From Victivallis vadensis (GTDB taxonomy: Bacteria; Verrucomicrobiota; Lentisphaeria; Victivallales; Victivallaceae): DNA of 61,611 bases. Positions within the stretch are counted from its first letter, which is position 1, and every line of letters starts with the position of its first letter. Shown piece after piece: positions 12,973 through 48,373 of the stretch. The stretch spans positions 1 to 61,611 of the forward strand of contig NZ_QEKH01000032.1 in the NCBI RefSeq assembly GCF_003096415.1, in the 5' to 3' direction. A model generated the notes under the pieces. The model searched no databases. It was not told the DNA's origin and saw nothing but the letters and a program-made list of their open reading frames with translations. A program made the position numbers and the translations under genes.

Positions 12973-14120
12973 TCCAATCCCCAGAACAGTTTCACCCCTG
13001 CCGACGCCGCCGCCAGCTCCGCCACATTGCTTTTCGAGGCGACATGCCAGTCCAGAAACAGCACATTCACCGAATTTGCATGGCGCAATGCCCCGTACAG
13101 CAGATGGTTGCGCTGTTTGGCGACATTGGGGTCCATCCGGATCGGCGTTCCGTCATCCGGATTGCCTGCCGCCGTATCCGCCAGTACGCAGATCCGTGAG
13201 GGATGCGCCGTAAAGCTCTGCCGCTTGCCGCCGATCAGCGCATTCAGCCCATAACTTGATTTCACCATCGAAGTATCACCGGCATTCGCAAAAGGTTCCG
13301 GGTCGGAAGGACACTTCAGCAGCTTCGCCGCCATCGCCTTGTCGATCGTGCCGGCCAGAAACAGCTCTCCCCGGTTGGTTTTGGTCCATAAGCCCCCATT
13401 CGGCATATAGCGGATCAGACGGCCGTCATGGCTGTCCGCATAGAGCAGGATGAAGGTTCCCATCTGTTTCAGGTTGTTCCGGCAACCGGAGGTCTTCGCC
13501 GTTTCCCGCGCCCGGTTCAGCGCCGGCAGCAGCATCGCCGCCAGAATTGCGATAATGGCAATCACGACGAGCAGCTCAATAAGCGTGAATGGCCTTACGT
13601 GGCCCGATGCGGGAGGCGTATCCGCCGCCCCCCGCACCCCCTGCGTCCGGCAAGGTGCCGGTGCCGGGTACGGGACGGTCGACAGGCGGAGCAGCGGTCG
13701 CTCGGCGGAGGAAGAAGATTCACAATAACGTGAAGTTGTCTTCCCGCTTTTTTGCGGAAAAACAACTTCACGTTTTTGCTCCGACTTGCCGCTTGCAGAG
13801 CATTGGCGGAGGCGTGAGAGCTTGCAAGAAGTAAGGAAAATGTTGGAGAGATTTGGTACGGGGAGAGACGCGACGCAAGTCGCCGCTTTCTCTCCCCCGA
13901 ACCCCTCTCTTTTACGCAGAGCGGGAACGAGGGGCCGGGGGAGCAGAGCTCCCCGGCGGGATAAGTAGGAGGAACGCAGTGACGATGCACATCCCGTTAC
14001 TCGGCAGCGGCACCTTGCCGCCTCTCTTTTACGCAGTGCGGCATACGGGGATAGATTGTATATTTTACAAGTTGTGTTCACGAGCAGCTCAATCAGCGTA
14101 AAATTCCGATTCTTTCCCAT
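12969..14120 (-). CDS. DUF1559-type pseudopilin carrying an in-frame 513-bp insertion
   Basis: Prepilin-like protein whose leader occurs twice. The ATG at 14120 (ribosome site AGGGAGAGG) gives [14 protein letters not shown], then ~171 residues of low-complexity sequence translated from a hairpin-rich insertion, then a complete leader [20 protein letters not shown] and the normal pseudopilin body. The C-terminal motif is [15 protein letters not shown], the H-x9-DG-type signature with W for G. The frame stays open through the insertion. Translation could alternatively begin at a GTG at 13637 preceded by a G-rich ribosome site, giving 222 residues with a normal leader. Whether the long form is processed is unknown. 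Confidence 0.7.
13568..14080. repeat. 513-bp hairpin-rich insertion flanked by 22-bp direct repeats
   Basis: Flanking copies of the sequence for FTLIELLV (13568-13589 and 14081-14102) differ at two positions. The insert holds a long inverted repeat (arms ACGTGAAGTTGT at about 13730 and its complement ending near 13771), CCGGCA-AGG-TGCCGG near 13652, and two copies of CTCTCTTTTACGCAG. It also shares a 22-bp word (14001-14022) with the mosaic at 43754-43969. It contains no transposase gene. Confidence 0.65.
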
Positions 14121-32244: not shown

Positions 32245-34125
32245 ATGGATACGAAAAACTTCATCGCCGAAAAGCTGGACCGCGACGAACTGATCCGGCT
32301 GATCGAATACCACAACCGGCGCTACTGGGACGAGGGGGAGCCTGAAATCCCCGACGCGCGTTACGACGAACTCATCCGCGCACTGCAGAAGCTCGAACCG
32401 GATCACGAACTGGTCACCCGTGTCTACGCCCCGGCCGTTGCCGGTTCCGGCAAGGTGCGGCATCTCCGGCCGATGTTGTCGCTGGACAAGGCCTATTCGC
32501 TCGAAGAAGTGCTGGAGTGGGCGAAGAAGTTCGCCCGCAGCGAGGACGAGGAGCTGCTGGTCGAGCCGAAATACGACGGCATTTCCGCCAACTTCGACGG
32601 GCGCGTTCTCTCCACGCGCGGCGACGGCGAACTCGGCGAAAACATCACCGACAAACTGCCGCTGGTCGAGCTGGAAACCGCCGGGCACACCGGCAAAGTG
32701 GACCGGCCGGTGCGCGGCGAACTGGTGATCCGCGACGACGATTTCAAGACCCTCTATTCGCATATCCGCAAGAAGGGTGGCGGCGTCTACAAGAACTCCC
32801 GCAACGCCGTCGCCGGGATCATGGGACTCAAGGAGATCGCCGAAATGGAGCTTCAGGGGGCGAAGATCACGCTGGTGGATTACAATCTGGTTTCGTTCCG
32901 GGTGAAGTATTCCGAGCTGGCCGCGAAGTGGGAGGAGCTGCGGCGGCAGCTGGAAGCCCTTCCCTATCCGCAGGACGGCATCGTGATCAAGCTGGCCGAC
33001 TCCGCCTATTCCGCGTCGCTCGGCAACACCGCCCACCATCCGCGCGGCGAAATCGCGTTCAAATTCACCAACATCCGCCGCGAAACCAGACTGATCGGCG
33101 TGGAGTGGAGCTTCGGCAAGAACTGCCTGACGCCGGTGGCGGAGCTGGAACCGGTCGAAATCTCCGGCACCACCATCCGCCGCGCCACGCTGCACAACAT
33201 CCAGAACATTCTCGAACTGGGCGTGCAGATCGGCGATACCGTGACCGTTGAACGGGCCGGGGACGTGATCCCCTACATCGTTTCGTCCACCCCCGGCGAG
33301 GAGCGCCGCTCCCCGCTGATCGAAGATTGTCCGAGCTGCGGCGCGAAGCTGGTCCGGCGCGGCCCGGAACTCTGCTGCCCCAACCCGGAGTGCCCCGAAA
33401 CCCAACTCCAGCGGCTCGCCGCCGCCGTCCGCAACCTTGGCATCGAACGGCTCGGCGAACCCACTTTGCGCAAGCTGATGGAAAACTCCGGCGTCCGCCA
33501 CCTCGGCGACCTCTTCGAGCTGACCGCGATGGACCTGCTCAGGCTCGACGGCTTCGCCGCCAAATCCGCCGCCAACCTGATCGAGGAGATTCAGAAGGCC
33601 CGGATCGTCAACGACTACCAGCTTCTTGCCGCGTTGAATATCCCGAACATCGGCGCCAACGTCGCCAAGGTGATCTTCAGCCACACCGACTTCGCCGGCC
33701 TACGCCGGATGTCGGAGGAGGAGCTCAGCGCCATCCCCGGCATCGGCCCGGAACGCGCCAAAGCCCTGGTTTCGGAGCTGGCCGCCCAATCGGAATACCT
33801 CGACGAACTGCTCGGCGCGGTCCGGCTGATCCACGCCGCCGCACCCGCCGCCGAAATCCCGACCGTCTGCTTCACCGGGAAAATGCCGGAGAAGCGTTCC
33901 TATTACGAGAAGCTCGCCACCGCCCACGGCTACCGGAGCGCGGACGATGTAACCTCCTCGCTGTCGCTGCTCGTCGCCGCCGATCCCGCCGAAAACAGCG
34001 GCAAGCTCAAAAAGGCCGCCAGACTCGGCGTCAAAGTGGTTTCGCTCGACGAATTTCTGTCCATGCTGTCCCCCGCTTCCGCGCCGATTGCAGAGGCGGA
34101 CGGTCAGCTGTCGCTGGGGATTTAA
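32245..34125 (+). CDS. ligA: NAD-dependent DNA ligase
   Basis: The 626-residue ligase seals nicks using NAD+. Domain Ia (YHNRRYWDEGEPEIPDARYDEL, ~20-45) is followed by the adenylation domain with active-site Lys in EPKYDGIS (~108). An OB fold and a four-Cys zinc finger (CPSCG, CCPNPECP, ~363-382) come next. The helix-hairpin-helix region (~400-530) and a C-terminal BRCT domain (~545-610, VCFTGKMPEKRSYYEKLA) complete the usual order. It is somewhat shorter than the ~670-residue norm. The 332-bp tandem repeat array begins about 115 bases after its stop. Confidence 0.93.
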   Translation: MDTKNFIAEKLDRDELIRLIEYHNRRYWDEGEPEIPDARYDELIRALQKLEPDHELVTRVYAPAVAGSGKVRHLRPMLSLDKAYSLEEVLEWAKKFARSEDEELLVEPKYDGISANFDGRVLSTRGDGELGENITDKLPLVELETAGHTGKVDRPVRGELVIRDDDFKTLYSHIRKKGGGVYKNSRNAVAGIMGLKEIAEMELQGAKITLVDYNLVSFRVKYSELAAKWEELRRQLEALPYPQDGIVIKLADSAYSASLGNTAHHPRGEIAFKFTNIRRETRLIGVEWSFGKNCLTPVAELEPVEISGTTIRRATLHNIQNILELGVQIGDTVTVERAGDVIPYIVSSTPGEERRSPLIEDCPSCGAKLVRRGPELCCPNPECPETQLQRLAAAVRNLGIERLGEPTLRKLMENSGVRHLGDLFELTAMDLLRLDGFAAKSAANLIEEIQKARIVNDYQLLAALNIPNIGANVAKVIFSHTDFAGLRRMSEEELSAIPGIGPERAKALVSELAAQSEYLDELLGAVRLIHAAAPAAEIPTVCFTGKMPEKRSYYEKLATAHGYRSADDVTSSLSLLVAADPAENSGKLKKAARLGVKVVSLDEFLSMLSPASAPIAEADGQLSLGI

Positions 34126-34240
34126 GAGAGTTTCGCCTGACTGCGGCAACAGTCTTGGGAGTACGGAGATTCCTCTCCGCTTTCCAATCGGCCCGGCCCT
34201 TACAGGCAGAATACCATACAGCAACACTCCCGCCGCCAGG

Positions 34241-35345
34241 GCGGAGTTCCGCCGATAGAGCAAATAAACTGATAGATAATAAATCCGGTTTTGTAATTTT
34301 TACGTAGTAAAAATTCAAAACCCTACCCGCCGCCGGGTGCTACCCGGTCGGGGGGACCGGCGGGCGAAGCGCCACCGGCCGCCGGAGGCAAGCCTCCGGG
34401 GAAGCCTGCCGTTTTAAAGGCAGGCGGGTCTGCCCGCCCTTTGGGCGGCAGACCTTGTGCGCTACGCGGCCTGATTTTCAATCAGGCTCCGGTAGCTGGG
34501 CGCAGTAGCGCACAAAGTGTCTCCGACGGGCAAGGCGCTTCGCCCTTGCAACCCGACCGGCAACGTGCCGGGGCGGAGTTCCGCCGATAGAGCAAATAAA
34601 CTGATAGATAATAAATCCGGTTTTGTAATTTTTACGCAGTAAAAATTCAAAACCGTACCCGCCGCCGGGTGCTACCCGGTCGGGGGGACCGGCGGGCGAA
34701 GCGCCACCGGCCGCCGGAGGCAAGCCTCCGGGGAAGCCTGCCGTTTTAAAGGCAGGCGGGTCTGCCCGCCCTTTGGGCGGCAGACCTTGTGCGCTACGCG
34801 GCCTGATTTTCAATCAGGCTCTGGTAGCTGGGCGCAGTAGCGCACAAAGTGTCTCCGACGGGCAAGGCGCTTCGCCCTTGCAACCCGACCGGCAACGTGC
34901 CGGGGCGGAGTTCCGCCGATAGAGCAAATAAACTGATAGATAATAAACCCGGTTTTGTAATTTTTACGCAGTAAAAATTCAAAACCGTACCCGCCGCCGG
35001 AGGCATCCCGGTCGGGGGGACCGGCGGGCGAAGCGCCACCGGCCGCCGGAGGCAAGCCTCCGGGGAAGCCTGCCGTTTTAAAGGCAGGCGGGTCTGCCCG
35101 CCCTTTGGGCGGCAGACCTTGTGCGCTACGCGGCCTGATTTTCAATCAGGCTCCGGTAGCTGGGCGCAGTAGCGCACAAAGTGTCTCCGACGGGCAAGGC
35201 GCTTCTCCCTTGCAACCCGACCGGCAACGTGCCGGGGCGGAGTTCCGCCGATAGAGCAAATAAACTGATAGATAATAAACCCGGTTTTGTAATTTTTACG
35301 CAGTAAAAATTCAAAACCGTACCCGCCGCCGGAGGCATCCCGGTC
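34241..35345. repeat. 332-bp tandem repeat array (3.3 copies) of clustered hairpins
   Basis: The word GCGGAGTTCCGCCGATAG starts at 34241, 34573, 34905 and 35237, an exact 332-bp period. Each unit is a row of short inverted repeats: GGCGGAGTTCCGCC; AATTTTTAC-GCA-GTAAAAATT; CCGGGT-GCT-ACCCGG; CGGAGGC-AA-GCCTCCG; GCCTGCC...GGCAGGC; TCTGCC..GGCAGA. Further on are GTGCGCTAC...GTAGCGCAC enclosing GCCTGATTTTCAATCAGGC, then GCAAGGCG...CGCCCTTGC, then CCGGCA-ACG-TGCCGG. Copies differ by only a few substitutions. The open minus-strand frames through it are by-products. The last partial copy ends abruptly at about 35345. Confidence 0.85.
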
Positions 35346-35399
35346 GCAAAAGCCAATGCTGATTTTGAGGGGGAAATCGAAAAATATTGAGCATGGGGT

Positions 35400-35468: not shown

Positions 35469-35756
35469 ATGCTGATGAAGGAGCGAGTTTTCACGGTCCG
35501 TAACAAAGCGGGAATTCATTGTCGTCCGTCCAGCGTGATTCTGAATACGATCAATAAGGAGTTTCCCTACCATCACTTCTGGGTGGAGACCAGCGACGGG
35601 CAGGAAACCGAACTGAACAGCATTCTGACGCTGATTTCGCTCGGCCTTACGGTCGGCTCCAAAGCGGTGCTGCGGGTGGAAGGCCCCGATGAGGATGCCG
35701 CCGTCAACCGGATCGGCGATCTTTTCGAGCACGAATTCGATTTCCCGCCGCGGTAA
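35469..35756 (+). CDS. HPr-family phosphocarrier protein
   Basis: The 95-residue HPr homolog carries the active-site His in KAGIHCRPSS (usual GLHARP) and a regulatory-Ser region ELNSILTLISLGL, followed by GSKAVLRVEGPDEDAAVNRI. It would carry phosphate in a PTS or serve as a regulatory Crh-like protein. No PTS enzyme gene is next to it. Two in-frame Met codons (35469, 35475) are possible starts; the first has GAGGGGG nearby. Confidence 0.87.
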   Translation: MLMKERVFTVRNKAGIHCRPSSVILNTINKEFPYHHFWVETSDGQETELNSILTLISLGLTVGSKAVLRVEGPDEDAAVNRIGDLFEHEFDFPPR

Positions 35757-42401: not shown

Positions 42402-43220
42402 CTATTGGAACATATTGTTGATATTGGTCGGAAACATCTGAAGCAGCACGTCATCCGAATCATAGATATTGAAGCTCGCGGCATGTCCGTCCAGAAACGC
42501 CGCATTCGCCCGGCCCTGTCCGTGACAGTTGTTGATATACAGCGAAGCTTTGTTGATCCAGTCGCTCCGCCCCCAGAAAGAGAGGCTGCTGTGGTTGCCG
42601 AATATCTGGTTGCTGTTGACATAGGTATCCAGAAATCCCGGCTTGGTCGCCGGTGCCCGGTAACGGCCGATCTTCGGAATCTGCTTATTGTTGGTCTTGC
42701 CCGCGCTGTATCCCAGCACCCGCGCCGCGAATCCATAGGTTCCCAGCGTCAGCGGATCGCCGGATTCCGGCAGGCTGATCTGCCCGATATCCGACGGAGG
42801 CGTCCCCTTGAAGCTGTCATAGGCCGGACAGAACGTCACCTTGCTTCTCGACCGCGTATAGTAGGTCTGGCGGTTGATATAGCCCGCCATGAAAAATTTC
42901 TGCCACGGATGGCTGTGCGGAAACCCGTCCCAAGTGGTCACATTGGGGAACTCACAGGCAGGAATGAATCCGTCGAAGTCGCCGACGTAAAGCGCAATCC
43001 AGGTGCCATGCTGTTTGAGGTTGCTGATACATTGGACGCTTTTCGCCTTCTCGCGCGCCTGATTCAGAGCCGGGAGCAGCATCGCCGCCAGAATCGCGAT
43101 GATCGCGATTACCACGAGCAGCTCAATAAGGGTGAATTTTGGCCGCATCGTGCCAGCCCTGCTGATGTACCCTGCCAGCTTTCCTCGTTGCATTTGCTTG
43201 TCCTTTATCTTGTTACGCAT
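42402..43220 (-). CDS. DUF1559-type pseudopilin
   Basis: The 272-residue pseudopilin has a long basic leader (~28 residues), the prepilin peptidase site and hydrophobic helix ([20 protein letters not shown]), and then the LNQAREKAK helix. The C-terminal H-x9-DG motif reads [16 protein letters not shown]. The ATG at 43220 has GCGGAGG 5 bases upstream, which supports the longer leader. The beta-helix gene follows after 9 bases, so the two are co-expressed. Expected to be membrane-anchored and processed by a prepilin peptidase. Confidence 0.88.
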
Positions 43221-43259: not shown

Positions 43260-44025
43260 GCCATTACAGGCAACAACTTTTATATTATGTTTACTTGTCC
43301 GGCCCAATGCCGTCCGATGTCAACCTTGGAGTGCGGAGCCCGAAGGGCTTGCTCCCGCTCTGCAGGAGTAAGATTCATCTCCGCTTTCCAATCGCACGTG
43401 ATCATGTAATTATACTTAAGTTTAGTTTGCCTTTCCGTATCGTTACCGGTCACAAACTGGTTGCTGCGTCTTATGCAGATGGCTCCGGAGGGCCAATCGC
43501 CCTCCGGACCTCCCCGCTCGCCTCGGAACTCCCGTTGACTTGCGAAGCACTTCCATTCGCGGGCGGCCCTAGCGGGCCTTACTTGTCCGCCTGCGGCGGC
43601 CAACCCTTCATCGTTCGCTACGCTCACTACGCCAGGGGGGCTTCGCTCTCTACGTTCGGCTTCGTCACTATCGTTCCTCGTTACTTGCTGCCGCAAGTAA
43701 TTCCCTCACATTCGTTCGCGGCGCTTACCGCGCTTGTTGTGCGCCGCGTAAATGGCCGCCACGCGACCTCGAAGGGCGTAGAGAGCGCACTCGGCAGCGG
43801 CACCTTGCCGCCGCGGCGCTTACCGCGCTTGTTGTGCGCCGCGTAAATGGCGATTCGGCCTTATTATACTGTATAATGGCTTTGCCAACCAACCTTCGCT
43901 TGCCTGTACTGGCCGCCGCGCGACCCCGAAGGGCGTAGAGCGCGCACTCGGCAGCGGCACCTTGCCGCCGTACCCGGCAGCGGTTACCTTGCCGCCCGCT
44001 TAACATGCTGGGCATTATGCGAAAT
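43260..44025. repeat. Hairpin-rich repeat mosaic upstream of pseudopilin 2
   Basis: About 770 bases without a credible gene. A 39-bp unit is present twice without change (43718-43756, 43813-43851; stem GCGGCGC/GCGCCGC). A ~59-bp unit is present twice with few changes (43754-43812, 43911-43969; contains CGGCA-CCT-TGCCG). Many other short stems occur, for example GGAGGGC-CAATC-GCCCTCC near 43480. Part of it is shared with the insertion in the pseudopilin gene at 12969-14120 and with 34150-34190. Confidence 0.75.
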
Positions 44026-46733: not shown

Positions 46734-47681
46734 ATGAAACCTGTATTCAAAGATGGAGTCTGGCCGGTAGTGCTGACTCCGTTCCGGGAGGACGGCGGAC
46801 TCGACATGACCGCCTACCGCGCCCTGCTAGAATATTATATCGGCAACGGCGTGGCCGGATTGTTCGCGGTCTGCATGAGCAGCGAACTGTATGAACTGAC
46901 CCCGGAAGAACGGCTGACGCTGGCACGTGAAGCGGTCGCGGTTTCCGCCGGACGGGTTCCGGTGGTGGCTTCCGCCTTTCTCGGCAACAGCGAGGCGGAA
47001 AAAATGCAGTCGGTCTTCGACATGGCCGCCACCGGCGTGGACGCGGTGGTGATTCCGGCCTGCCAGCTCGTGCCGGAGACGGCGGATGAAGCCGGATTCC
47101 GCCGCGCGTTTGAAACGCTGCTCGGCCGCACTGCCGGCATCCGGTTCGGGCTGTATGAATGCCCCCATCCGTACCACCGGCTGATTTCCCCCGCGCTGCT
47201 CGGCGAACTCGCGCGGCTGGCGGGAGAGCGGCTCGCGTTCCTGAAAGACACCTGCTGCGACGCCGCCGTCATCGCGGCCAAGCTCGTAGCGTGCACCGGA
47301 ACCCCGCTCAAGCTCTATAACGCCCACCTGACCACCTGCCTCGAATCGCTGCAGCTCGGAGCCGCCGGATACAGCGGCACTTCAGCGAATTTCTATCCGG
47401 GATTGTTGGCGGAGCAGGCGGCCTGCTTCCGTTCCGATACGGCACGGGCGCGGGAGCTGCAGCAGTTTTTCAATCTGGTCCAGCGTCACGTCGAATTCAA
47501 ATACCCGCGCTCGGCCAAACTGTTCCTGCGCGAATGCGGCGTACCGCTGACTGATTTCTGCCGCGTCGCCTGCGACGAACTGGATCGGGATCAGATGATC
47601 CAGTTGCGCGCCTTTCACACCGGCGTACAGGCATTCGCCCGCAACAGTCAACCCCAATTAACAGGAGAAACCGCAATATGA
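46734..47681 (+). CDS. DapA/NanA-superfamily aldolase
   Basis: The 315-residue class I aldolase of the dihydrodipicolinate synthase/N-acetylneuraminate lyase superfamily has the catalytic Tyr region [13 protein letters not shown] and the Schiff-base Lys in [10 protein letters not shown]. The family's N-terminal [14 protein letters not shown] is also present. A separate canonical DapA is encoded at 19219-20094, so this one more likely cleaves a keto-sugar acid. Start is ATG 46734 (or GTG 46731), with GGGAG upstream. It shares 4 bases with the following pseudopilin gene. Confidence 0.85.
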
Positions 47682-48373
47682 AAACATGTCGTTTCACCCT
47701 TATCGAGCTGCTCGTCGTGGTAGCAATCATAGCAATTCTGGCTGGTATGCTGCTGCCCGCGCTGAACCAGGCGCGTGAGACGGCCAAAGCCTCCAGCTGT
47801 ATCAACAACCTCAAGCAGATCGGGCTGGCGCAGGCGCAATATATCGACGCCTATGCCAGTTATCCCACCCCTTCCACCGGTCCTTCGCCGCTGCACAACT
47901 GGTATCGGATGCTGATTGCCGGCGGCGTCAACACCAAGCACAGCAAACTGTGGTACTGCCCCTCGGTCACGGAGCATTATGTGGAAAAAACGGTGCTGGT
48001 GCCGTGGGGAGATATGTCCTATACCTTCGACTACGGCATCAACCGGAGCCTGGTCGGCGACCTCACTTCCGCAGGGAAACTGCAGATCGGCACCTATACG
48101 ATTCCCTTCAAACAGCTGGCTAATCCGAGCGAAGTGCTGCTGGTCGCCGACCAGGTAGCGGCTAAGAACCTGAACGGCTGCGGTTTTTCCGTGACCGGCT
48201 GGGTAGCGACGGACGGAACCAGTTATCCGATGGGACGTGCCGGGCGCAGGCACTACCGGAACCGGGGCCCCAACATCCTCTACTGCGACTTGCACGTGAC
48301 CGGCGTTCCGAATCCGACGATTTACAATGCGGGGACCCGCAGAAACTTCGGCCTGAAAGAGATAGGAGACTAA
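47678..48373 (+). CDS. DUF1559-type pseudopilin
   Basis: The 231-residue pseudopilin has a short leader: [20 protein letters not shown], then [20 protein letters not shown], and the C-terminal H-x9-DG-like motif [18 protein letters not shown]. It overlaps the aldolase gene by 4 bases and is followed after 4 bases by the LamG/FG-GAP gene. This is the third instance in the window of a pseudopilin directly ahead of a large exported protein. Confidence 0.9.

Follow-up and report, generated by a model that had tools for sequence, protein, structure and literature searches.

A tandem hairpin array in Victivallis vadensis is probably a local amplification of a dispersed, non-coding mobile repeat

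The genome of Victivallis vadensis carries a tandem array whose units consist almost entirely of hairpins, about nine in ~325 bp, and contain no apparent gene. The array lies in a window of 61,611 nucleotides, which is the whole stretch of DNA analysed here. It probably arose by local amplification of a mobile repeat of ~325 bp that is non-autonomous and non-coding. Most likely this repeat is a miniature mobile element of DNA, not one locus encoding a structured RNA.

The array had first been noticed as 3.3 near-identical units of 332 bp, and Tandem Repeats Finder recovers it as such (34235-35346; period 332, 3.3 copies, 98% matches, 0% indels). It was also correctly held not to be a CRISPR, since the whole 332-bp unit repeats at 98% and there are no unique spacers. 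Neighbouring units differ at a few positions; one has GGGTGCTACCC where the next has GGAGGCATCCC, for instance. The array is thus not an exact duplication of one copy. On its left is an intact frame (32245-34125, +) that looks like an NAD-dependent DNA ligase, and on its right an HPr-like frame (35469-35756, +), both named from sequence. For a neighbouring glutamate dehydrogenase, the nearest named genomes are those of uncultured Victivallis (87%). Positions 170-326 of the nhmmer profile match 34235-34390, which is the first, partial unit. The parts of the array are:

34235-35346, + strand: whole tandem array, 3.3 units of 332 bp (Tandem Repeats Finder)
34242-34390, + strand: first partial unit, second half only (AT-rich hairpin and reversed M module)
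34398-34722, + strand: complete element 1 in natural order (nhmmer profile 1-326)
34730-35054, + strand: complete element 2 (nhmmer profile 1-326)
35062-35346, + strand: element 3, ending inside the reversed M module (profile 1-286)

Both strands of the unit fold far better than shuffled sequence, which bears out the hairpin-built unit of the first-pass annotation. The plus strand reaches -180.7 kcal/mol (z -8.1) and the minus strand -179.3 kcal/mol (z -10.0), and none of 100 dinucleotide shuffles attains either value. The unit as first proposed must be revised in two respects, its order and its tandem state. Single copies elsewhere run from unit position ~157 to 332 and then from 1 to 150, and tandem copies are the exception. 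In this natural order, the element is a chain of H1, H2, P3, M, a small GGCGG hairpin, an unpaired stretch, an AT-rich hairpin and M', a second M that is reversed. The M module is itself made up of a mini-hairpin, H4, ACCCGACCGG and H5. In element 1 these parts are located as follows:

34404-34425, + strand: hairpin H1 (GCCTGCC/GGCAGGC), with two main alleles in the family; helix 1
34427-34454, + strand: hairpin H2, conserved base GGTCT...AGACC, upper stem exchangeable; helices 2-3
34455-34515, + strand: P3, with outer stem TTGTGCGC/GCGCACAA, inner stem, CCTGATTTTCAATCAGG hairpin and conserved bulge AGCTGGGCG; helices 4-6
34519-34571, + strand: M module; helices 7-9
34519-34527, + strand: mini-hairpin GTC-TCC-GAC of the M module
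34530-34549, + strand: H4 of the M module, followed by ACCCGACCGG
34557-34571, + strand: H5 of the M module, CCGGCAACGTGCCGG
34618-34655, + strand: AT-rich hairpin CGGTTTTGTAATTTTTAC...GTAAAAATTCAAAACCG
34663-34722, - strand: reversed M module (M'), outer end TG-CCTCCGGCGGCC
34710-34722, + strand: GCCGCCGGAGGCA at the unit junction, the terminal direct repeat of the element

The terminal direct repeat is present at 9 of 26 distal ends, mostly at tandem junctions, compared with a background of 0.4%. No coding capacity was found in the element. The short open frames had been regarded as by-products, and this is upheld because copies elsewhere carry indels and swapped hairpins.

A search for the unit in its own genome (G000, 5.2 Mb in 87 contigs) and in related genomes reveals a dispersed family. 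In G000, ~100 matches fall at ~39 sites, nearly all of them single or half copies. Since most copies in the genome are single, it is the tandem state that is special and not the unit. Copy counts were taken from a 1.18-Mb sample of G000 together with targeted stretches. The sample holds 28 core matches above 60 bits, which extrapolates to ~120 copies per genome.

Among 41 genomes searched, the full element occurs only in G000, with fragments in G005, a second Victivallis species, and one in G014. The pattern of the M end is found 40 times in G000, six times in G005 and not once in 239 other genomes of the phylum. Sequence-only comparison detects nothing but fragments in G005. Read directly, the G005 loci have the same architecture as the element of G000 and different stems. 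A covariance model built from G000 alone detects G005 copies with up to 123 bits (E 3e-30), compared with 67 bits for the same copy under a sequence-only model, a rough comparison because the models are weighted differently. In other Victivallaceae genera, the M part scores 41-56 bits, with different stems. The exact P3 pattern has no match in the genomic or viral contig collections searched, nor does the long M pattern in viral contigs. A shorter M pattern (TGCCTCCGGCGGCC N4-24 GGACCC) matches in five viral contigs (L318-L322); TGCCTCCGGCGGCC may also follow genes in Desulfovibrio. A name search of the Victivallis literature for such repeats returned only a statistical survey of reverse-complement triplets.

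The stems are conserved through covariation across the two Victivallis species. In an alignment of 73 distinct rows that was fitted to the structure, and therefore favours it, 93.2% of cells pair and double changes occur in 35 of 54 pairs. Cells changed on both sides number 427; shuffles give 124 +/- 10, and sliding the partners gives 19-67. Homologous units therefore retain their stems, which the first-pass annotation had left as a point that could go the other way, and its suggestion of selection on folded structure is borne out as selection on, or copying of, that structure. Examples are still visible by eye in a MAFFT alignment. The outer P3 stem TTGTGCGC/GCGCACAA is replaced by CCGTGGGC/GCCCACGG in two copies, a compensatory change, and the mini-hairpin appears as GTC-GAC, ACC-GGT or GCC-GGC. 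RNAalifold gave a patchy fold on this alignment because alternative hairpins are out of register, and its fold was replaced by a stated structure and the covariance model.

Each hairpin slot has two to four alleles. All 10 pairwise tests of association between slots gave p>0.05, and 37 copies represent 33 haplotypes. Nearly every copy is thus a different mosaic of independently assorting hairpin alleles. The mosaic is most simply accounted for by homologous recombination between copies at conserved stretches.

Evidence for mobility can be found at orthologous sites. The gap between pgi and the next gene is 4 nt in genome G006, and in G000 the element lies between the two. The other eight Victivallis lack such an element behind nadA, and behind pgk an intrinsic terminator is all that seven relatives have. 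In G000 the pgk terminator is retained (CCCCTCCATCCGGAGGGGTTTTTCTTT), and the element starts right after its T tract. Because the checked relatives are without the element at these sites, lineage-specific gain, and hence mobility, would be the simplest reading. It rests on presence and absence between species, so that loss in the relatives is conceivable. The empty sites are too diverged to fix the boundary of the element or a target-site duplication. Behind gatA, G000 has an internal-deletion derivative in which the middle is lost (M'-H1-direct repeat). At the gatA locus of G005 (L348), a different, G005-type hairpin repeat lies ~10 nt behind the gene; the gatA 3' end thus carries an element derivative in one species and another repeat type in the other.

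The copies follow a placement rule. The 1.18-Mb sample contains 19 sites where the outer M' end follows a called stop codon, read in the sense direction, at a distance of 2-16 nt. One of the remaining outer ends is further away, 43 nt past pgk, and for three no gene was called nearby. If copies were placed and oriented at random within these spacers, ~4 of 20 would fall into this class, although the list was compiled after looking and the computed probability is indicative only. The upstream genes, named from sequence, are ordinary: pgi, nadA, queC, gatA, an aldolase and a ribonucleotide reductase. Several G005 copies also lie behind stops, more loosely (0 to ~60 nt). The array in the window is an exception to the rule, with its M' end cut at 35346 and facing the start side of the HPr-like gene. 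A position this strict makes the target rule testable, as selection against other sites or as targeting of terminators.

The same placement is the basis for another explanation, in which each copy is transcribed with the upstream gene and terminates, attenuates or stabilises its mRNA. An element that works at the level of the transcript would more naturally show a fixed polarity relative to the gene ahead of it, and this counts against the mobile-DNA reading; the stems are strong as well. By a simple rule, a terminator-like hairpin with a T-rich stretch is found at 10 of 19 element ends, compared with 98 of 487 other gene ends. However, the T-rich stretch lies within another hairpin, several nt away from the stem, a terminator already stands ahead of the element at pgk, and the orthologous genes of relatives manage without it. 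Mismatch counts bear on the same question. If one RNA strand is kept at each locus, G-U should be far more frequent than A-C on that strand. In G000, 66 G-U and 52 A-C were counted in 2788 cells, and in G005, 8 and 19 in 1129 cells; as some cells are misregistered and the copies are related, these numbers constitute an argument and not a proof. The tRNA stems of the same G000 sample have 32 G-U in 371 pairs, of which only the G-U share is comparable since ARAGORN admits no A-C. G-U is in excess on neither strand. That G-T is about as frequent as A-C argues against selection on one RNA strand per locus. The symmetric decay argues for copies that decay freely after production from intact sources, with spread at the DNA level. 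Folded single DNA strands or cruciforms are conceivable and favoured over RNA. The structured RNA array among the first suggestions is not sustained in its simple form, the family being dispersed, absent from most relatives and balanced in these mismatches. A structured 3'-UTR RNA is therefore an unlikely general explanation, and such a role of some copies is compatible as a secondary effect.

Three other explanations account for less. The copies may be DNA sites for a chromosome-organising or repair protein, similar to the gyrase or IHF sites of BIMEs, spread by gene conversion and kept for their function. They are extragenic and numerous, they pair at the DNA level, and the unpaired AGCTGGGCG and ACCCGACCGG are conserved and at least partly common to two species. 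Absence of the element from close relatives and the symmetric decay of its pairing make such a site family distinctly improbable, and no protein is known. Palindromes can also be maintained by template switching during replication (quasi-palindrome correction), without selection or mobility. This would suit arms that are nearly pure Watson-Crick and that are replaced together as blocks, but it does not account for the placement rule, for a chain common to a second species, or for the way in which an ordered chain of 325 bp became dispersed, and is very improbable. Finally, the tandem array alone could be an artefact of assembly, a concern raised when it was first described. The assembly is in 87 contigs, and such repeats seem to break contigs, G005 copies being located at contig ends. 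Yet the units carry private differences, and tandem copies recur at other loci in G000 and in G005; an artefact is scarcely credible.

If the repeat is a mobile DNA element, a trans-acting enzyme would recognise the folded M/P3 structure in DNA, probably single-stranded. Either this enzyme would place copies at gene 3' ends, or selection would remove copies elsewhere. Once inserted, a copy would decay without further selection on pairing. Tandem arrays may form by unequal recombination between the terminal direct repeats GCCGCCGGAGGCA, and hairpins may be shuffled through homologous exchange between copies.

Neither a transposase nor a recombinase partner was found. RAYT (Y1_Tnp, PF01797) has 0 matches in G000, with control genomes positive, and the RAYT/IS200 transposase family is absent from that genome. 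The only reverse transcriptase of G000 has 321 aa and looks retron-like from its size and its YADD motif (L353, 1366-2331, contig C20). None was found in G005, and the enzyme was rejected as mobilising partner as it is not correlated with the element. An Rfam search at E<=1 gave nothing in the array and only a sub-threshold chance match elsewhere.

The element is comparable with BOX and BIME repeats but appears to be a distinct variant, since RAYT is absent, its ends carry no terminal inverted repeat and it is not a single short palindrome. BOX elements of Streptococcus pneumoniae are modular, intergenic, strongly folding repeats in many copies that are over-represented behind genes and thought to be mobile parasites (PMC3049150). 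By description, the Victivallis element likewise has ordered modules, an intergenic location and a stable fold. BOX elements are built as boxA-boxB(n)-boxC, have inverted repeats at their termini as well as target duplications, and vary in module number (PMC3049150). The Victivallis element is instead a fixed, GC-rich hairpin chain with exchangeable alleles and terminal direct repeats. REP/BIME repeats and the GTAG/CGTC families are extragenic palindromes of high copy number, with mosaic clusters and a probable mobile origin (PMC3733652, PMC2817692), and the element resembles them in being extragenic, high-copy, mosaic and probably mobile. GTAG/CGTC palindromes, however, are single hairpins of 20-40 bp tagged GTAG or CGTC, those with GTAG being tied to RAYT (PMC3733652, PMC2817692), whereas the element has 325 bp, nine helices in its core alone and no such defined tag, in a genome without RAYT.

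MITEs are another point of comparison. Like them, the element is small, non-coding, folded and dispersed, lacks its own transposase and is absent at orthologous sites. Unlike them, it is not AT-rich and ends in direct repeats (GCCGCCGGAGGC) rather than terminal inverted repeats; M and M' form an internal inverted pair, which on the H1 side stops short of the end of the element. Group IIC introns favour sites on the 3' side of transcription terminators, with a single polarity. The element is similarly located at the 3' side of genes or terminators in one polarity, but it is too short and non-coding, with no Rfam match and no correlated reverse transcriptase. As for integron attC arrays, which are defined by gene cassettes between the sites and by an integrase, the copies sit singly behind housekeeping genes, without cassettes.

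A bolder proposal, and a rather doubtful one, is a new class of mobile element with hairpins as exchangeable cassettes, whose putative enzyme would read the fold (the M/P3 architecture) and not the stem sequence, and insert at transcript 3' ends. Different species of Victivallaceae could then share one architecture and differ in their stems. Since some Victivallis genomes carry copies and others do not, such an enzyme would be searchable. As a natural record of a structure that is conserved when its sequence is not, apparently at the DNA level, the element is unusually clear: its many hairpins covary, their alleles are unlinked and the decay is symmetric. Repeats of this type break assemblies and can lead searches for structured RNA astray.

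Other repeats were observed alongside. A second hairpin family in G000 is ~710 bp long and nearly palindromic, with M-like ends and no open frame in its consensus. It lies mostly between the stop codons of convergent genes (for example C10:57047-57750, C2:239819-240534 and C6:48838-49546 in the sample contigs). Just left of the array, at 34150-34190, is a short hairpin GGAGTACGGAGATTCCTCTCCGC. It resembles TTGGAGTGCGGAG...CTCCGCAC, found at 43.3 kb and beside several elements elsewhere. A further hairpin-repeat cluster (CGCGCTTGTTGTGCGCCGCG, CGGCAGCGGCACCTTGCCGCC) at 43300-43978 adjoins a pseudopilin-like gene. The pseudopilin-like N-terminus is the most repeated coding stretch of the genome, with ~50 similar places in the 1.18-Mb sample, and recurs in the window at 47666-47843, 43003-43200 and 13449-13600. 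The first 2000 nt of the window have a GC content of 35%, compared with ~60% over most of it, and may be a recent import.
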